Shown here in pieces: positions 6,071 through 40,067 of a DNA stretch of 40,067 nucleotides. The position numbers and the translations under genes were made by a program. The DNA is from Thiotrichaceae bacterium (GTDB lineage Bacteria > Pseudomonadota > Gammaproteobacteria > Thiotrichales > Thiotrichaceae): contig WFRR01000124.1 in NCBI GenBank assembly GCA_015486375.1, positions 1 to 40,067 of the forward strand, in the 5' to 3' direction. Within the stretch, counting starts at the first letter, position 1. Every line of letters starts with the position of its first letter. The notes below the pieces were generated by a model that saw only the letters and a program-made list of their open reading frames with translations, searched no databases and had not been told where the DNA came from.

Positions 6071-8398
6071 ATGTATAGTCTTTCTCTTGGATTTTTAGCA
6101 GGAACAAGCAGTCTTTTTTTATTTTCAACGCTGCCCTCACTAAAATTCCAGTTTATTGTAATCTTGCTGATTGTTGGATTGTGGAAATTCTGGAAGAAAC
6201 CCGTTATTCGCCTGATATGCGCGCTATTATTGGGCTTTTTCTATAGTTTATTTATAGCTCATTCCCACCTAAATGAAAGAATACCGACGCAACTGGAAGG
6301 GAAAAAACTTCAGGTAATCGGCACGATTACCAATATCCCTCATCACAGTGCAGGAACAGCACGTTTCTATTTGAATATCGAACACAGCGCGTTAGCTGAT
6401 CAAGCGAATATTCCCCTGAATTTTCAGGGTAAAGTCAAGTTAGCGTGGTATCACACCAATACGCCCCTACACAGCGGTGAGCGTTGGCAATTGCAAATAA
6501 AGCTAAAACGTCCACATAGCTTTATTAACTCAGGCAGTTCAGATTATGAACGCTGGTTATTCCATCAAGGCATTACTGCAACAGGCTATGTACGCACTTC
6601 TGAACACAATCAACGTCTTGCTACGCGTCAAGCGTGGCAGTTAAATGCTATCCGTGAAACGATTCATCAAGCCATTCAAACCCATGTGAGTGACCCCGAT
6701 AAAGCCGCCTTAATTTCTGCTTTATCCTTAGCCATACGCGATGATATTGAGCCACAACATTGGGAAATTTTCAGAAACACAGGCACAAGTCATCTAATTG
6801 CCATTTCTGGGCTGCATATTGGCATGATTGCGGGTTTTGCTCTATTACCCATTAGTGTTATTTGGCTACTATTTCCCGCACTTTATGTCCGTTTACCCCT
6901 AAAAATTGCCGTATTAGTATTAGGTGCAGTCTTTGCAACGGCTTATGCTTTATTAGCAGGTTTTACGATTCCGACGCAACGCGCTTTAATTATGGTGTTA
7001 TTAGGTCTTTCCAGTCTGTTATTAAAACAAAAAGTCCCCTTGAGCTATTTGCTCGCTATTACGGTATTTTCTGTCTTGCTGATTGATCCACTAGCAGGTT
7101 TATCAGAAGGCTTTTGGTTATCTTTTTTTGCTGTGGGACTCATTTTTTATCTGCTTGGACAGAAACATAAAATGACTCCAATGGCACGACGTTATCGCTT
7201 TTTATCCTTACAGCTCTTTTTATCATTGGGCATGATTCCAATCACTGCCATGTTTTTTTCCAGTGCCTCATTAATCTCACCTATTGCCAATTTAGTTGCA
7301 ATCCCTTGGGTAACATTGATTGTTGCACCAAGTTTATTATTAGGTATTTTATTACTATCTGTTTCTCCCTTATTGAGTGACTATTGTTTTGCCTTTTCCA
7401 GTTGGGGCTTGGATAAACTATTAGGCTATTTAGGTTTTCTCAGTGAATTTTCAAACAGTGTGATTCACTTTGCAGCGATACCTATTGCGCTTATTCTGCT
7501 CGCGATTATTGGTGTGTTTATACTCGCTTTACCCCGAGGCATGGTGGGACGTTATTTAGGGGTTATTTTTATTGCACCCTTATTTTTACTCACCCCAAAA
7601 AAGCCCTTAGAAGGTGAATTTAAGCTCACTGTATTGGATGTAGGACAAGGCTTAGCCACCGTTTTACAGACACAAAATCATGTCATGGTCTTTGATACAG
7701 GCGATTATTACTCTGATCAATTTGATATGGGGTCAATGGTAGTTTTACCGTATCTGCAATCACAACAAATTCGCGCGATTGATAAATTAGTCATTTCTCA
7801 TGCTGATAAAGATCACAGTGGCGGGGCTAATGCCATTTTGCAAACCATACCCGTGGTTGAATTGATCAGTAATGAAAGGCTAACAATTCACAATAGAGCT
7901 TCACACGTTTGTCAAACAGGGCAAACATGGATTTGGGATCAGGTAAAATTTGAGGTATTAAGCCCGAATAAAAGCCAAGCATCCCTGAGTAAAAATAATC
8001 GTTCCTGTGTGATCAAAGTGTCTAATCATTATCACAGCCTGTTATTAGTTGCTGATATAGAACGAAAGGCAGAATATGCCTTATTAAAACAAAATCGCCA
8101 GCTGTTAAAGGCAGATGTTCTATTAGTGCCACATCACGGCAGTAAGACATCATCAGCATGGCCCTTTATTGCCGCTGTTCAACCTAAATTAGCTATTATC
8201 TCCGCAGGTTATCGCAACCGTTTTAATTTTCCACACGAGAAAATACTGTTTCGTTATCATAAGCTTAATATTGCTCGCTTAAACACCAGTCAAGTCGGTG
8301 AAATACAGATTGTATTTCCCAATCATGCCGCTGAGATACACACCGTATCAAAACGCATTGAACAGCAAAAATTTTGGATGGCTAAGCCGTTAGATTGA
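6071..8398 (+). CDS. comEC: DNA internalization competence protein ComEC/Rec2
   Basis: Inner-membrane channel that carries single-stranded DNA into the cytoplasm during natural transformation. The 775-residue product has the three expected parts: an N-terminal DUF4131 region with membrane spans, a polytopic Competence domain (SHLIAISGLHIGMIAG near residue 250), and a C-terminal metallo-beta-lactamase fold with VISHADKDHSGG near residue 577 and HHGS further on. No clear Shine-Dalgarno precedes the ATG at 6071. The gene ends one base before the convergent replication-like gene. Its presence suggests, but does not prove, natural competence. Confidence 0.94.
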   Translation: MYSLSLGFLAGTSSLFLFSTLPSLKFQFIVILLIVGLWKFWKKPVIRLICALLLGFFYSLFIAHSHLNERIPTQLEGKKLQVIGTITNIPHHSAGTARFYLNIEHSALADQANIPLNFQGKVKLAWYHTNTPLHSGERWQLQIKLKRPHSFINSGSSDYERWLFHQGITATGYVRTSEHNQRLATRQAWQLNAIRETIHQAIQTHVSDPDKAALISALSLAIRDDIEPQHWEIFRNTGTSHLIAISGLHIGMIAGFALLPISVIWLLFPALYVRLPLKIAVLVLGAVFATAYALLAGFTIPTQRALIMVLLGLSSLLLKQKVPLSYLLAITVFSVLLIDPLAGLSEGFWLSFFAVGLIFYLLGQKHKMTPMARRYRFLSLQLFLSLGMIPITAMFFSSASLISPIANLVAIPWVTLIVAPSLLLGILLLSVSPLLSDYCFAFSSWGLDKLLGYLGFLSEFSNSVIHFAAIPIALILLAIIGVFILALPRGMVGRYLGVIFIAPLFLLTPKKPLEGEFKLTVLDVGQGLATVLQTQNHVMVFDTGDYYSDQFDMGSMVVLPYLQSQQIRAIDKLVISHADKDHSGGANAILQTIPVVELISNERLTIHNRASHVCQTGQTWIWDQVKFEVLSPNKSQASLSKNNRSCVIKVSNHYHSLLLVADIERKAEYALLKQNRQLLKADVLLVPHHGSKTSSAWPFIAAVQPKLAIISAGYRNRFNFPHEKILFRYHKLNIARLNTSQVGEIQIVFPNHAAEIHTVSKRIEQQKFWMAKPLD

Positions 8399-8399
8399 A

Positions 8400-9998
8400 T
8401 TACCACCTGCTTATATTTTTAATAATTTTGTCATCCAGTTGATATTTTTCAACATAAGTACACACTTCATCATAGACTGCATGGGCTTTATTATTGAATT
8501 CGTTGTAATAATCTTGGTTATATTGTGAATAATCCGCTTCTAGCAAGTTTCGATAATGGACGCGTTTGTAATGATAATTACTATACCTATCTACTAGCTT
8601 ATTTAAGCCTGCATAGATGGCTTTTCGCGTTTCCATATCCTCAGGACTTTGAAAGGATTCCAAGGCACTAAAATCTAATTCACCCTTGCGGTGTCGGTTG
8701 ATTAAACTGGCAAAATAAGAGAGGCGATTCTTAAGGGGATCAATACTATTAGTGAGACGAATTTTGAGTAAATCGAGAATATCTTGCTCACGGCTACCCG
8801 CTTTACTCACCAATTTTTGTACACTAAAACGCTCCTCTTTAGTCAATTGTGGTGGATAATTTAGATTCGCAAATTGTGCTGTGGAGTGAGTACTACTTGA
8901 AACCGCTTGATGAATAGAATCCTTTAAGTGTTGATTGCCATTTTTAGCGTGTAAATTCTGATTTTCTTGTTCTAAATCTGCAATGGTTTGTTCATTATTT
9001 TTAATCGTAGTCGCTTGGGTTTGTTTATAAGCATGATGTTCAAGCAGTTGTTGTTCTAAGATTTCTTGATTACTTTTAAATTGTGATAAATCATCAGTCT
9101 GGTTATTTTTAATCTCAGTTAAATCATTAACTTTTTGTTGAAGCTGCTCTGATTGTTGTTCAAATTGCTGTTTTAATTGTTGATATTCTTTACTGTTAAC
9201 AATGCTTTCTGCGGTTGCTTGTGTTTCCGTTTCTATTGATTTTGGTGGTTTTTCTAATTCAGATACTATTTCTGTTTGAGCTTCTGTTGACGTTATTTTT
9301 TCAGATTCAGGTGTAATTTCTGTCGCCATATTGAATTGCTTATTGTGATGTTGTTCAAGCACTTCTTCAATGATTTGTACAATGGCTTTTTTATCAATAC
9401 TGTGTTGATTTTTATGCTGAGTGTCAGTGACTTTCGTTTGAATTTCAGTGGTTTGATTCGTCTGAGATAATGTTTTTGATACTGGATCATCATTGCTATC
9501 ATCTTCTAAAAAATCAGCGCCAAAGCCTTCATCAATGGGTTTTTTATAATGTTCAGGTAATAAGATGCTGGGATCATTGTTTGTGATGCGTTGCGCGGGA
9601 TCTTTTTGAAACCATGAGGAAAAGTGAAAATTAACTGATAGATAATTATTGTATTTCCCCCCTTGTCGCCATTGAATAATATTCGCATGGGATAAGAAAC
9701 GAATCGCTTCACCAATATGATCATGTCGAATCTTGGTCAGTTCTTGTAAACGGGTGGTCGTGGCGTGATCTTCACGTTTTTGATAACCGATCGTTTGGTT
9801 GAGAATGGTGTTAAAAAGCCGAATGCAGCGCGCTGATAATTGACAAGCCGAAACTTGTTTTAAGCAAAGATCGTAAATGATTTTAGATTGCTCACCCGCA
9901 AATTGAAGCTTATTGCCGATGATGTAACCCAGTTGAACGCCGAGTTCGTCGGGGCTTTGAGTAGCCGAACAGGCGGGTATATATGATGTTGTAGACAT
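8400..9998 (-). CDS. Phage-O-like replication protein with coiled coil
   Basis: Predicted DNA-binding replication protein of 532 residues. Residues about 57-125 match the phage replication protein O N-terminal winged-helix pattern (CIRLFNTILNQTIGYQKRED, then LQELTKIRHDHIGEAIRFL and NIIQW). Residues about 262-352 are a Gln/Glu-rich coiled coil. Residues about 383-445 form a module (LTKEERFSVQKLVSKAG, IDPLKNRLSYFASLI, GELDFSAL) that recurs in the partial gene at the right window end. The ATG at 9998 has GGAG 8 bases upstream. A 21-bp iteron array and AT-rich DNA lie directly upstream, the arrangement of initiator plus origin. I infer an initiator-like role. No plasmid partition, integrase or phage structural gene is beside it. 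It ends one base from comEC. Confidence 0.75.
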   Translation of the reverse strand: MSTTSYIPACSATQSPDELGVQLGYIIGNKLQFAGEQSKIIYDLCLKQVSACQLSARCIRLFNTILNQTIGYQKREDHATTTRLQELTKIRHDHIGEAIRFLSHANIIQWRQGGKYNNYLSVNFHFSSWFQKDPAQRITNNDPSILLPEHYKKPIDEGFGADFLEDDSNDDPVSKTLSQTNQTTEIQTKVTDTQHKNQHSIDKKAIVQIIEEVLEQHHNKQFNMATEITPESEKITSTEAQTEIVSELEKPPKSIETETQATAESIVNSKEYQQLKQQFEQQSEQLQQKVNDLTEIKNNQTDDLSQFKSNQEILEQQLLEHHAYKQTQATTIKNNEQTIADLEQENQNLHAKNGNQHLKDSIHQAVSSSTHSTAQFANLNYPPQLTKEERFSVQKLVSKAGSREQDILDLLKIRLTNSIDPLKNRLSYFASLINRHRKGELDFSALESFQSPEDMETRKAIYAGLNKLVDRYSNYHYKRVHYRNLLEADYSQYNQDYYNEFNNKAHAVYDEVCTYVEKYQLDDKIIKNISRW

Positions 9999-10114
9999 AA
10001 ATCAATCTCCATTTAGTAGTGGATTGGTGAACATGGAACGCTCTTCAGTTTGTTGGTAGATACAACAACCACAGAGCCATTAACTTTTTGGTCAATTGGG
10101 GCTTTTCTGCCCTG

Positions 10115-10240
10115 ATTCCTTTTTTACTTTGACAGCTTTTTAATTGAAATACAAGCCCCCCACTGCAAAAAATCAAAAATGCTATGTTTTTGTTTTGTTG
10201 TTGTTTTTTTGTAATATTGTTTAATTGTTCTTGTGTACCC
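10115..10240. other. AT-rich stretch, candidate DNA-unwinding element
   Basis: Between the replication-like gene and the iterons the DNA is rich in long A and T runs (for example TTGTTTTGTTGTTGTTTTTTT near 10190-10210), broken by a short C-run near 10155. In iteron origins such DNA next to the repeats is where the helix opens. I see no perfect DnaA box (TTATCCACA) here by eye. Function is inferred from position and composition only. The 499 bases from 9999 to 10497 hold no convincing gene; the apparent frames across the array only read the repeat as a 7-residue repeat. Confidence 0.4.
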
Positions 10241-10244
10241 TGAA

Positions 10245-10274
10245 CTGGGGCAGTATTGGGGGTTGAATGCCCCA
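10245..10274. promoter_or_regulatory. Inverted pair of iteron cores, candidate operator
   Basis: One direct core TGGGGCA (10246-10252) is followed after 15 bases by its inverse TGCCCCA (10268-10274), forming a 7-bp inverted repeat. It lies just outside the tandem array, on the side of the replication gene. In several iteron plasmids an inverted half-repeat upstream of rep is where the initiator represses its own gene. That role is inferred here. Confidence 0.4.
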
Positions 10275-10297
10275 AGTGAGGGTAGGTTTTCCCTAAA

Positions 10298-10424
10298 CTG
10301 GGGCAAACTCTCCCTAGACTGGGGCAAACTCTCCCTAGACTGGGGCAAGCTCTCCCTAGACTGGGGCAAGCTCCCCCCTAGACTGGGGCAAGCTCTCCCT
10401 AAACTGGGGCAAGGTATCCCGAAG
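10298..10424 (+). repeat. 21-bp iteron-like direct repeat array
   Basis: Six tandem direct repeats with consensus CTGGGGCAAGCTCTCCCTAG plus A begin at 10298, 10319, 10340, 10361, 10383 and 10404. Spacing is 21, 21, 21, 22 and 21 bases, about two helical turns, so bound proteins would sit on the same face. Copies 1 and 2 are identical, copy 3 differs by A to G, copy 4 has one extra C, and copy 6 degenerates after the core. A partial unit (CCCTAAA) precedes copy 1. The array is GC-rich in an AT-rich surrounding and lies about 300 bases upstream of the replication-like gene. The repeats are seen directly; the iteron role is inferred. Confidence 0.85.
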
Positions 10425-10497: not shown

Positions 10498-11400
10498 CTA
10501 TTTAAGTATTAAAATTCTCCATGCACCACTTAAAACAATGAGACCGATAATAAAACCAATAATTAAGTCAGGTAACGCTGAACCTGTTACTAAAACAAGC
10601 CCTCCCGCAATAATAACCCCAGTATTGGCAATTACATCATTGGCAGAGAAAATCCAAGAGGCTTTCATATGAGCGCCATTGTCTTTATTTTTATAAATAA
10701 GCATCAAGCAGATAATATTAGCTATCAGTGCAAGAGATCCTATACCCATCATTAATAGAGATATAGGTTCACTGCCATACATAAATCGCCGAATTACTTC
10801 AGACAGAACAGATAAAGCTAAAATAAGTTGCAACCAACCTGAAATATGTGCAGCCCGTAGTTTTAATTGCACACTTTTACCAACCACTAAAAGAGCCAAA
10901 GCATAAACGGCTGCATCGGCAAACATATCTAATGCATCTGCTATTAACCCTGTTGATTGGGCGTACAAACCAACGGCTAATTCAATAAAAAACATGAAGC
11001 CATTAATAGCCAATAACCATTTTAAAGTTATGGCTTCATCTCTATCATTTTTTGACGATGATTGTTGTGCTTGTTTTATTTCACGGGCAGAGATTTTTTG
11101 GGTATTATTTAATACAGCACCATAATTGAGTGACTCAATACGTAGAGTTACTTCATCAAGGTTATCAGCATGATAGATGGTTACAAAACGATTAGGAATG
11201 TCAAAGCTTAAGAATACTTTTGGCTCAAGACTAGAGAAAGCCATTCGTATCATACCTTCTTCTGAAGGGCAATCCATTTTGGGAACAGAAAATTCACTCA
11301 CCCAACCCTCTGTAAAATCAAGACTGTTAACGGTATCTATATCTGATTTAGTTTCTATTTGATTTTGTGATGAACAACTATTGTTACAAGATTGTGACAT
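10498..11400 (-). CDS. Cation diffusion facilitator-type cation transporter
   Basis: Predicted inner-membrane divalent metal exporter of the CDF family, 300 residues. The N-terminus has a short Cys cluster (CNNSCSSQ) and an HMA-like domain, residues about 34-100, with PKMDCPSEE: one Cys where CxxC is usual. The membrane part has about six spans. The metal-site residues are D-x3-D in ADALDMFADA and H...D in the HMKASWIFSANDV segment. The long cytoplasmic C-terminal domain of classic CDF proteins is absent. It is divergent from the sigma factor gene and downstream of the iteron array in reading direction. Metal specificity cannot be told from sequence. Confidence 0.85.
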   Translation of the reverse strand: MSQSCNNSCSSQNQIETKSDIDTVNSLDFTEGWVSEFSVPKMDCPSEEGMIRMAFSSLEPKVFLSFDIPNRFVTIYHADNLDEVTLRIESLNYGAVLNNTQKISAREIKQAQQSSSKNDRDEAITLKWLLAINGFMFFIELAVGLYAQSTGLIADALDMFADAAVYALALLVVGKSVQLKLRAAHISGWLQLILALSVLSEVIRRFMYGSEPISLLMMGIGSLALIANIICLMLIYKNKDNGAHMKASWIFSANDVIANTGVIIAGGLVLVTGSALPDLIIGFIIGLIVLSGAWRILILK

Positions 11401-22306: not shown

Positions 22307-22724
22307 TGGCCAATAAGGTTATACATACAAGAGTACAGTGATCCAGACAATAATTTTGCAGATCACACGTAATATTTGAACGATTTGTAAAGCTCTACCC
22401 GATTTTCAGAGCAGAATATCTAAGTTTTAGTACAAGATACATCTGACACAGCAATCACGTTTACATTATGATTGTTTAATATATCTACTAAAATGCTTTT
22501 ACACGGTAGTCCTAGGTATTCACTGTCATACACTACAGTTACCCAAGTTTTAAGTAATAAAAAATACTTTAAGTTGTATAGAAGTTCATATACTAGAACA
22601 AAAATATCTTGAATACCCTTATATAAATATTATATTTTGTAATATCTGATTAGTTTTTATTCGTTATCGTCGTTAAAGTTAAAGTGTTTTATTGCAGATG
22701 ACCCCATTCTTCGTTAATTTATTT

Positions 22725-22760
22725 CACAATCACAATCACAATCACAATCACAATCACAAC
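22725..22760 (+). repeat. Hexamer tandem repeat CACAAT
   Basis: Five exact CACAAT units followed by CACAAC. It runs straight into the heptamer repeat. Confidence 0.95.
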
Positions 22761-22795
22761 TTGCAACTTGCAACTTGCAACTTGCAACTTGCAAA
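22761..22795 (+). repeat. Heptamer tandem repeat TTGCAAC
   Basis: Four exact TTGCAAC units and a fifth ending in A. Seven-base repeat tracts of this kind can change length by slippage and are known in intergenic DNA of cyanobacteria and, as I recall, some Beggiatoa-like bacteria. Confidence 0.95.
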
Positions 22796-22906: not shown

Positions 22907-23449
22907 ATGTTAAAGAAAATAATTTTTGGTACAGCATTAATGCTCACCAGCTCGATTGCGTCGGCAGATAAATTTATGGATGCAAAATGGGCCTTGGCTG
23001 CTTGTGATGCTTGGAATCTCAATGAAACACTAATGACGGGGCTAGCAGGTGATGCATGGTTAAATAATAACAAAGATCGGGGTTATAAATTAATACAGAT
23101 GTATCGTACTGATTGCGGTGAAGCAAGCAAAGTGCAACTTAATATTGCGGATAAAGGCGGTAAAGCCTCTTGTATTTATGGTGGTGTTCCTGATGGTAAA
23201 GAAATCAATGCAAGTGTTGACTATGTTATGCACGCCACTGATGTTCGCTGGACGGAATTAGGCAACAATGATTATGGTCCTGCAAAAGCCATGATGTTTG
23301 GACGTTTAAAATTTACAGGGCCTAAAATGGAAGCGATGAGTGTTATGAGTCCTTTTGGTGAATTTCTCAAATTGGCAGGTTCTGTAGCAGGGGCTAAAGG
23401 TAAAGATAATTGTCCTGCTGCTGCAGTAGCAGAAGAAAAAGCCAAGTAA
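22907..23449 (+). CDS. Exported SCP2-like sterol/lipid-binding domain protein
   Basis: 180-residue protein with a signal peptide ending at ASA (about residue 20), so probably periplasmic. The body has the SCP2 sterol-transfer domain pattern: GYKLIQMYRTDC, VQLNIADKGGKASCIYGG, ASVDYVMHATDVRW, then GPAKAMMFGRLKFTG. Such proteins bind lipids in a hydrophobic tunnel; the ligand here is unknown. Four Cys occur in the mature part, possibly disulfide-bonded. AGGA lies 9 bases upstream of the ATG. It is monocistronic. Confidence 0.8.
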   Translation: MLKKIIFGTALMLTSSIASADKFMDAKWALAACDAWNLNETLMTGLAGDAWLNNNKDRGYKLIQMYRTDCGEASKVQLNIADKGGKASCIYGGVPDGKEINASVDYVMHATDVRWTELGNNDYGPAKAMMFGRLKFTGPKMEAMSVMSPFGEFLKLAGSVAGAKGKDNCPAAAVAEEKAK

Positions 23450-39286: not shown

Positions 39287-40067
39287 TTATATGATAGATT
39301 TTAACTTTTCCTGTTCTGCCTCTAAGCGATCAGCTTCAGCTTTTAAAGCATTGAGCTTTTCAACCATCGGTGTGACTGTTGCAGACAGTTGTAGCTTATC
39401 AGCCGCGCCCCAGTAGTCTAAACCCCGCTTCTCTCCTTCTTCTACGATTTGCTTATGTAGGGGTTTATAGAACTCGTATTCTGCTAGATAAGTCTGTGTA
39501 ATAACATCTATTTGTTGCTGTAATTGTTCATGTTGTTCGGCGTATTGTTTAGCCGCGCGTTCTGTATTGCTTGAAAAGGCTTGCAAATCGAGTGTGCCTG
39601 ACTCCAATTTACTCACTAGGCTGGAAAAATAAGCCAGTGGGTTTTTTAAGGGGTCTGTGCTGTTTTGCAGCCGATGGGTCAGTGTTTCGAGTAACGCTTG
39701 AGAGTAATCACCTGCTCGGGGTAGCAAAGATCGTTCCAGTTCTTGGCACTGTTGATCGCTAAGTTGAGTTGGAAAATGATATGTAATATTTGAATTATCA
39801 GGTGTTTGAGCCTGATGAGTTTGAGCCGTGTGATTAGCCGTTGGGGTTATATTTTCAGTCGCTTGAGGCGTAGATTCCTGTATTTTTACATCTTGAAATT
39901 TTTCCTCAATGGTGTGTAATTTTCCCACCACGCTTTGTAATTGGTTGCTGAATTGATCGCTTAATTTTGTTTCGATTACATTTAACGCGGAGGCAATCAC
40001 TGTTTGTATTTTTAAGGTTAGCGTGTCGTCATCAATCGGCTGAGTGTCTTCAAGACTTTGTTTATCT
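39287..40067 (-). CDS. Partial gene sharing C-terminal module with the phage-O-like protein
   Basis: The frame is open from the window edge to the stop at 39287, so the N-terminus is outside. An internal GTG at 40000 could be taken for a start, but the frame continues upstream without a stop. The visible 259 residues hold a helical, Gln/Thr-rich part and then a module matching residues 383-445 of the protein at 8400-9998: QLSDQQCQELERSLLPRAG, TDPLKNPLAYFSSLV, SGTLDLQAF. The end (about the last 70 residues) is a charged coiled coil. By analogy the missing N-terminus may be a winged helix; that cannot be seen here. Confidence 0.7.
   Translation of the reverse strand, partial: DKQSLEDTQPIDDDTLTLKIQTVIASALNVIETKLSDQFSNQLQSVVGKLHTIEEKFQDVKIQESTPQATENITPTANHTAQTHQAQTPDNSNITYHFPTQLSDQQCQELERSLLPRAGDYSQALLETLTHRLQNSTDPLKNPLAYFSSLVSKLESGTLDLQAFSSNTERAAKQYAEQHEQLQQQIDVITQTYLAEYEFYKPLHKQIVEEGEKRGLDYWGAADKLQLSATVTPMVEKLNALKAEADRLEAEQEKLKSII

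Follow-up and report, generated by a model that had tools for sequence, protein, structure and literature searches.

Phage O-like initiator genes with iteron-like arrays form a dispersed family of probable replicon modules in a Thiotrichaceae genome

Bacterial chromosomes normally have one origin of replication, and extra origins are usually harmful. A chromosomal locus that combines a gene for a phage O-like initiator with direct repeats and AT-rich DNA raises the question of what such an assembly is doing there: a first-pass annotation, made from the letters alone, had suggested a domesticated plasmid or phage replicon, a second chromosomal origin or an unknown repeat-binding system. We addressed this question for a locus in the window, by which we mean the whole stretch of DNA analysed (40,067 nucleotides), which is the complete 40-kb contig C124 of the Thiotrichaceae sulfur-bacterium genome G000, a MAG of 2.67 Mb in 175 contigs that is 97% complete. 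The features of the window that bear on the question are collected in Table 1.

Table 1. Features of the rep locus and its surroundings, in window coordinates
Feature	Position	Strand	Basis or remark
comEC, flanking gene outside the module	6071..8398	+	Convergent with rep, 1 nt from the rep stop codon
rep gene, 532 aa, phage O-like initiator, clade A	8400..9998	-	ORF and homology searches
Conserved C-terminal helical domain of Rep, ...NPxAYFxSLVxKxxxGxLD...	8658..8867	-	Alignments
Variable Q/E-rich linker of Rep, predicted long helix, coiled-coil-like	8940..9230	-	AF2 helix 257-353, low overall confidence
Winged-helix domain of Rep (Phage_rep_O, PF04492)	9612..9875	-	Pfam match and predicted fold
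Leader hairpin 2, CAAUC...GAUUG, Shine-Dalgarno region in the loop	10003..10026	-	17 copies compared
Leader hairpin 1 (likely)	10040..10077	-	Predicted fold
AT-rich segment, 28.3% GC	10130..10235		Composition; between array and rep
Conserved box ACACAAGAACAATTAAACAATATTACAAAAAA, adjoining the repeats	10205..10236	-	Genome pattern search
Iteron-like array, 21/22-bp spacing, clade-A core CCCCARTYYAGGG	10238..10420		TRF, core search, shuffles
Cation-efflux transporter gene, flanking gene outside the module	10498..11400	-	Homology
Second Rep family member (clade C), of which the contig, ending within the gene, holds the C-terminal part	39287..40066	-	Homology search

The protein encoded by the central gene, which we call Rep, matches the Pfam family Phage_rep_O (PF04492) over residues 42-129 (E 1.9e-9, 38.4 bits against a cut-off of 28.7) as well as PHROG 277, "replication initiation O-like" (E 1.9e-13), and the phage O-like winged helix read into this frame in the first pass is thereby confirmed. 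A model of the N-terminal domain takes the form of an H-H-H-H-E-E winged helix (pLDDT 67, pTM 0.60), for which Foldseek returned generic winged helices, favouring no single family and giving no E value under 0.001; the proposed similarity of the N-terminus to replication initiators is supported by the sequence matches. The full-length AF2 model (pLDDT 55) is too poor for interpretation, and sequence searches found no solved structure matching the whole protein. Among the aligned Rep copies the Q/E-rich linker is weakly conserved; the C-terminal helical domain, for which a Pfam search gave no match, is common to most copies and to those of other genera and is absent in some (C92, C99). All 14 aligned copies match Phage_rep_O (E up to 1), and none of them matches a transposase family in Pfam.

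The claim of an upstream array with a period of 21 bp holds up well. TRF reports a tandem array at 10290-10420 with 6.2 copies of a 21-bp period, 91% matches and a score of 204, and the exact core CCCT[AG][AG]ACTGGGGCA occurs seven times within 10238-10411 (at 10238, 10291, 10312, 10333, 10354, 10376 and 10397), with a core spacing of 21-22 bp inside the array. Dinucleotide-preserving shuffles of the 700-bp upstream region gave a comparable array in 0 of 60 cases. The array itself has 58% GC and hence is not AT-rich; the AT-rich DNA announced before the gene is the segment between array and rep, whose GC content compares with 38.9% for the whole window and falls into the lowest 2% of 100-bp windows. 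Repeats inside the rep gene form no array, so that the arrangement differs, as had been pointed out, from that of lambda, whose iterons lie inside the O gene.

Closer to the start codon, hairpin 2 of the leader keeps its CAA/UUG pairs in 17 of 17 copies and its remaining pairs in 15-16 of them, and since it is invariant it displays no covariation. Hairpin 1 is predicted in most copies and also in relatives of other genera with different stem sequences. RNAalifold on a MAFFT alignment of the leaders recovered hairpin 2 and not hairpin 1, with no covariation, and because this consensus fold missed hairpin 1 we regard it as likely only. A search of the leader against Rfam gave no match.

The flanks named in the first pass, comEC as a core gene and a metal transporter, were also found as described, with Competence, DUF4131 and Lactamase_B domains in ComEC and a cation-efflux protein on the other side. 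A special closeness of the rep stop codon to neighbouring genes was considered and rejected, the convergent gaps showing no difference from background (Mann-Whitney p 0.32). The comEC loci of two congeners have no module, and with 56-57% protein identity they are too diverged for the module junction to be defined there as an empty site. Elsewhere in the window, the clade-C copy at the right end lies 148 nt upstream of yebC, and two adjoining perfect short tandem repeats at 22724-22794 (TCACAA x6 and CAACTTG x5.4) may mark a phase-variable promoter region; the ORF at 22907 lies about 110 bp downstream of them.

The locus is far from unique within its own genome. Searched with the window Rep protein, the genome gave 43 matching stretches, spread over more than 30 contigs and ranging from 80% down to 25% identity, and a profile of the N-terminal domain gave 37. 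Of the latter, 29 (clades A-E) span one and the same profile position, around column 105, and must therefore be distinct loci and not fragments of fewer genes. The family thus comprises 29 or more separate loci, which amounts to about one module every 70-90 kb, and at least four further N-termini belong to a divergent O-like group, clade F; these counts come from genome-wide protein and profile searches together with the contigs that were read. With so many paralogues, a single domesticated plasmid or phage replicon is ruled out. The suggestion of a second chromosomal origin fares no better, given at least 29 modules that mostly have their own array where the upstream region is readable, and a second or sole origin replacing DnaA is ruled out by the one normal dnaA gene of the genome. 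On the contigs read, full Rep copies measure 480-600 aa and stand beside decayed ones that are truncated at 149 aa (C99), contain internal stops (C166) or have no C-terminal domain (C92). Many contigs end inside rep with exact end overlaps to other contigs, the usual effect of repeats on short-read assembly; near-identical copies, which would collapse in an assembly of this type, were not seen.

Readable upstream regions share one layout, in which repeats are followed by the conserved box, an AT-rich stretch, the two-hairpin leader and rep. Across the copies the box reads close to ACACAATAACAATTAAACAATWTTACAAAAAA, and the leader ends near GGATTGATTT just before the start codon. With up to three mismatches allowed, the box matches nine places in the genome, two of them at the end of a contig whose assembly stops before rep, and a reversed control pattern matches none. 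The first-pass annotation had made its reading depend on repeats being conserved next to orthologues, and arrays are indeed found at most readable copies: in 10 of 16 upstream regions the tandem arrays exceed all 60 shuffles, and the remainder have fewer, degenerate repeats (arrays are weak or degenerate in C13, C85, C99, C54 and C143). Moreover, Rep clade and repeat sequence go together, clearly for clades A, B and D and less so for C and E. The four clade-A genes have 7, 3, 5 and 3 A-type cores in their upstream regions, against 0.004 per 650 bp elsewhere (469 kb), and overall the upstream regions hold 3-7 (A), 1-4 (B) and 3-5 (D) cores of their own clade against a background of about 0.000-0.025 per 650 bp; as the cores were picked by eye from the very copies afterwards counted, these figures demonstrate co-inheritance, not binding. 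In the clade-F copies of this genome (L128, L129, L130 and L131, on C163, C126, C34 and C40) the leader is conserved, and there is no repeat array upstream of or inside the gene.

The edges of the modules are well defined. On the 3' side, DNA similarity ends at the rep stop codon or a few codons away, even in pairs that are 95% identical, and some pairs differ in the last rep codons and the stop codon. On the other side, similarity begins at the outermost repeat in clade E, and in the clade-C pair C105/C156 about 25 bp beyond the array are also shared. What lies outside is unrelated from module to module and often core, including genes for YceG/MltG, CbiD, QueC, ferrochelatase, a KdsB-like cytidylyltransferase, ribosomal protein L19, a CCA-adding-type enzyme and YebC. 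The 221 ORFs that lie within 4 kb of 37 modules include no companion gene family occurring beside more than four modules, and no partition, integrase, structural or mobilisation gene recurs, in line with the first-pass remark that no partition, integrase or phage gene was visible. The O-like protein is the sole gene of the module, which contains no transposase or recombinase and no recognisable nuclease domain; when the edges were compared by eye among aligned copies, with no close empty site for reference, neither terminal inverted repeats nor target duplications were made out. Matching ends, as of circular contigs, were found in 0 of 24 fully read contigs.

Two further observations concern the surroundings of individual copies. 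Just beyond two modules (L037 1978-4414 and L054 2591-4150), at a distance of 10 nt at most, lie genes of an AAA-ATPase-like family (MKRLPISISNLPEIINDNYIYVDKTAYIK...), with 78% DNA identity between the two places. A repeated element of another kind, in which short palindromes abound (GACTTTAAGTC, GTCTTTTAGAC, GACTTTAGTC), is present upstream of rep in L038 and L054, and in C172 it replaces most of the leader.

The copies are under purifying selection. Pairwise dN/dS lies between 0.11 and 0.31 in every clade tested, with dS from 0.13 upwards (0.24-0.29 for the window gene against its clade-A paralogues), indicating that the Rep proteins were kept functional while the copies diverged. A phylogeny built on the N-terminal domain unites the 24 A-E copies sampled in one group (94/79) that is private to this genome, and clade F forms a separate group with full support. 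Across 63 searched genomes of the family, two congeners have no copies, and a few genomes in two other genera, including the Leucothrix mucor MAG HyVt-493 (L068), have 1-4 copies each with strong scores; several of these relatives share the leader together with one or more repeats, and the repeats are clear in G047. Beyond Thiotrichaceae, the N-terminal profile reached E 1e-12 in one other genome among 369 of the class and one other among 398 of the phylum, and PF04492 is present in 7 of the 369. The complete Thiothrix-group genome G067 has its own dispersed set of eight clade-F-like genes, six of which were placed in the tree and form one clade. One clade-F-like O gene there (L159 4739-8501, G067:C1 near 215 kb) adjoins a long array with a period of about 72 bp and a repeat ending GGATTGAAAC, which looks like a CRISPR array.

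Taken together, the anatomy and distribution of these loci suggest that they are probably minimal theta-type replicon modules that form a dispersed chromosomal family, the window locus being one copy. If lambda O and iteron plasmids are a guide, the winged helix of Rep would bind the repeats of its own clade and Rep would open the AT-rich DNA, and the C-terminal part might, at a guess, recruit the host DnaB helicase. The leader hairpins could mask the ribosome-binding site, and leader and array together would limit rep expression. On this reading the modules would act as origins, and the module would itself be the mobile unit, copied alone to at least 29 places in the genome.

The individual parts are of known kinds, and it is the genome-level copy number that is surprising. 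An N-terminal O-type winged helix, direct repeats near the gene and an adjacent AT-rich segment recall lambda O and ori-lambda, but Rep has a long variable linker and a C-terminal domain with no Pfam match, a gene for a P-like helicase loader is not beside rep, whose neighbours are comEC and the cation-efflux gene, and the module is chromosomal and present in dozens of copies. Iterons of Gram-negative plasmids are typically 17-22 bp long (PMC4980987), and plasmids such as R6K, pPS10, RK2, P1 and F likewise have repeats of about 21-22 bp beside an AT-rich region and a rep gene (PMC4980987); here, in contrast, the initiator is O-like by sequence and not of the Rep_3/TrfA type, and the modules are chromosomal, multicopy and free of partition and mobilisation genes. 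The PLE phage satellite of Vibrio cholerae also keeps a minimal initiator of its own with iterons in the chromosome, although satellites have an integrase and other genes and excise (PMC7145576), whereas the module consists of rep and its upstream region. In their many copies, sharp edges, unrelated flanks and mixture of intact and decayed members the modules resemble dispersed transposable elements, except that their sole gene is a replication initiator. In the open-licence full-text literature we found no description of such a family.

Dispersal is the strongest anomaly, with dozens of copies, defined edges and no recombinase. It is possible, if doubtful, that the modules are self-propagating selfish origins, in which an initiator and its cognate iterons spread by their own replication, without a transposase, and diversify in repeat specificity; one conceivable route would lead from local over-replication to reinsertion. 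Several points run counter to the replicon reading as a whole: a cost is to be expected from chromosomal origins this dense unless they are silent, the arrays of several copies are weak or degenerate, clade F is dispersed and has no repeats, and no skew switch is seen at the window locus.

Alternatively, many members of a diverse pool of plasmids, phages or phage satellites may have integrated independently and then eroded to rep and origin, which we consider unlikely. O-like proteins are encoded by phages and plasmids, the purifying selection could already have operated in the pool, and one Thiothrix-group position, beside an AlpA-like gene, is common to several genomes. Two Thiothrix plasmids of the same bacterial family, pTfr153 and pThsubDNT52_1, encode relatives, annotated as replication protein and with an O-like N-terminus; these, however, belong to an F-like sister clade and not to that of the window, on 150-kb plasmids with many genes. 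Against such a pool, tblastn with the window Rep found no match in 50,697 phage records or 72,556 plasmid records, nor did viral contigs give one, and only relatives of the window protein showed weak N-terminal matches to phage O proteins. Integration remnants would also have to explain edges that are uniform even in young pairs and the want of a recurrent companion gene. Since the sampled copies fall into a single clade private to the genome and the searches turned up no parent element, we think it likelier that the module itself spread within the genome than that it was captured again and again from plasmids or phages.

Rep might instead be a repeat-binding regulator, or an incompatibility-type defence that titrates or blocks related plasmids or phages, with modules that are no longer origins or never were and copies that have diversified for this role. 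Clade-specific repeats and long-term purifying selection on Rep would match a recognition repertoire that has diversified, every genome carries a set of its own, and the leader hairpins imply tight control. Nothing in the sequence is specific to defence, however, and a repressor has no need of a full initiator anatomy including an AT-rich segment, so that this explanation appears quite unlikely. That the modules are active auxiliary origins, amplifying or multiply initiating the genome of a large or polyploid cell, is very improbable: their density and intact initiators would suit such a role, but dnaA is normal, the GC-skew profile has no switch at the window locus, where local skew follows gene orientation, and congeners manage without the family. 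Finally, an assembly or binning artefact is hardly credible, for although the MAG is fragmented and short exact overlaps broke the assembly so that many copies sit at the ends of contigs, several full copies are flanked left and right by native genes, four complete clade-A copies have different flanks, and the architecture recurs in other genomes.

If the modules are dispersed replicons, as we think probable, dozens of intact origin-type units in one genome would permit direct tests of the means by which a cell silences or tolerates extra origins. The set would likewise be a test ground for the divergence of initiator and iteron specificities, and for the notion of an origin with its initiator as a mobile element, and its paralogues with matched Rep-repeat pairs offer ready data from which the recognition code of O-type initiators could be worked out.
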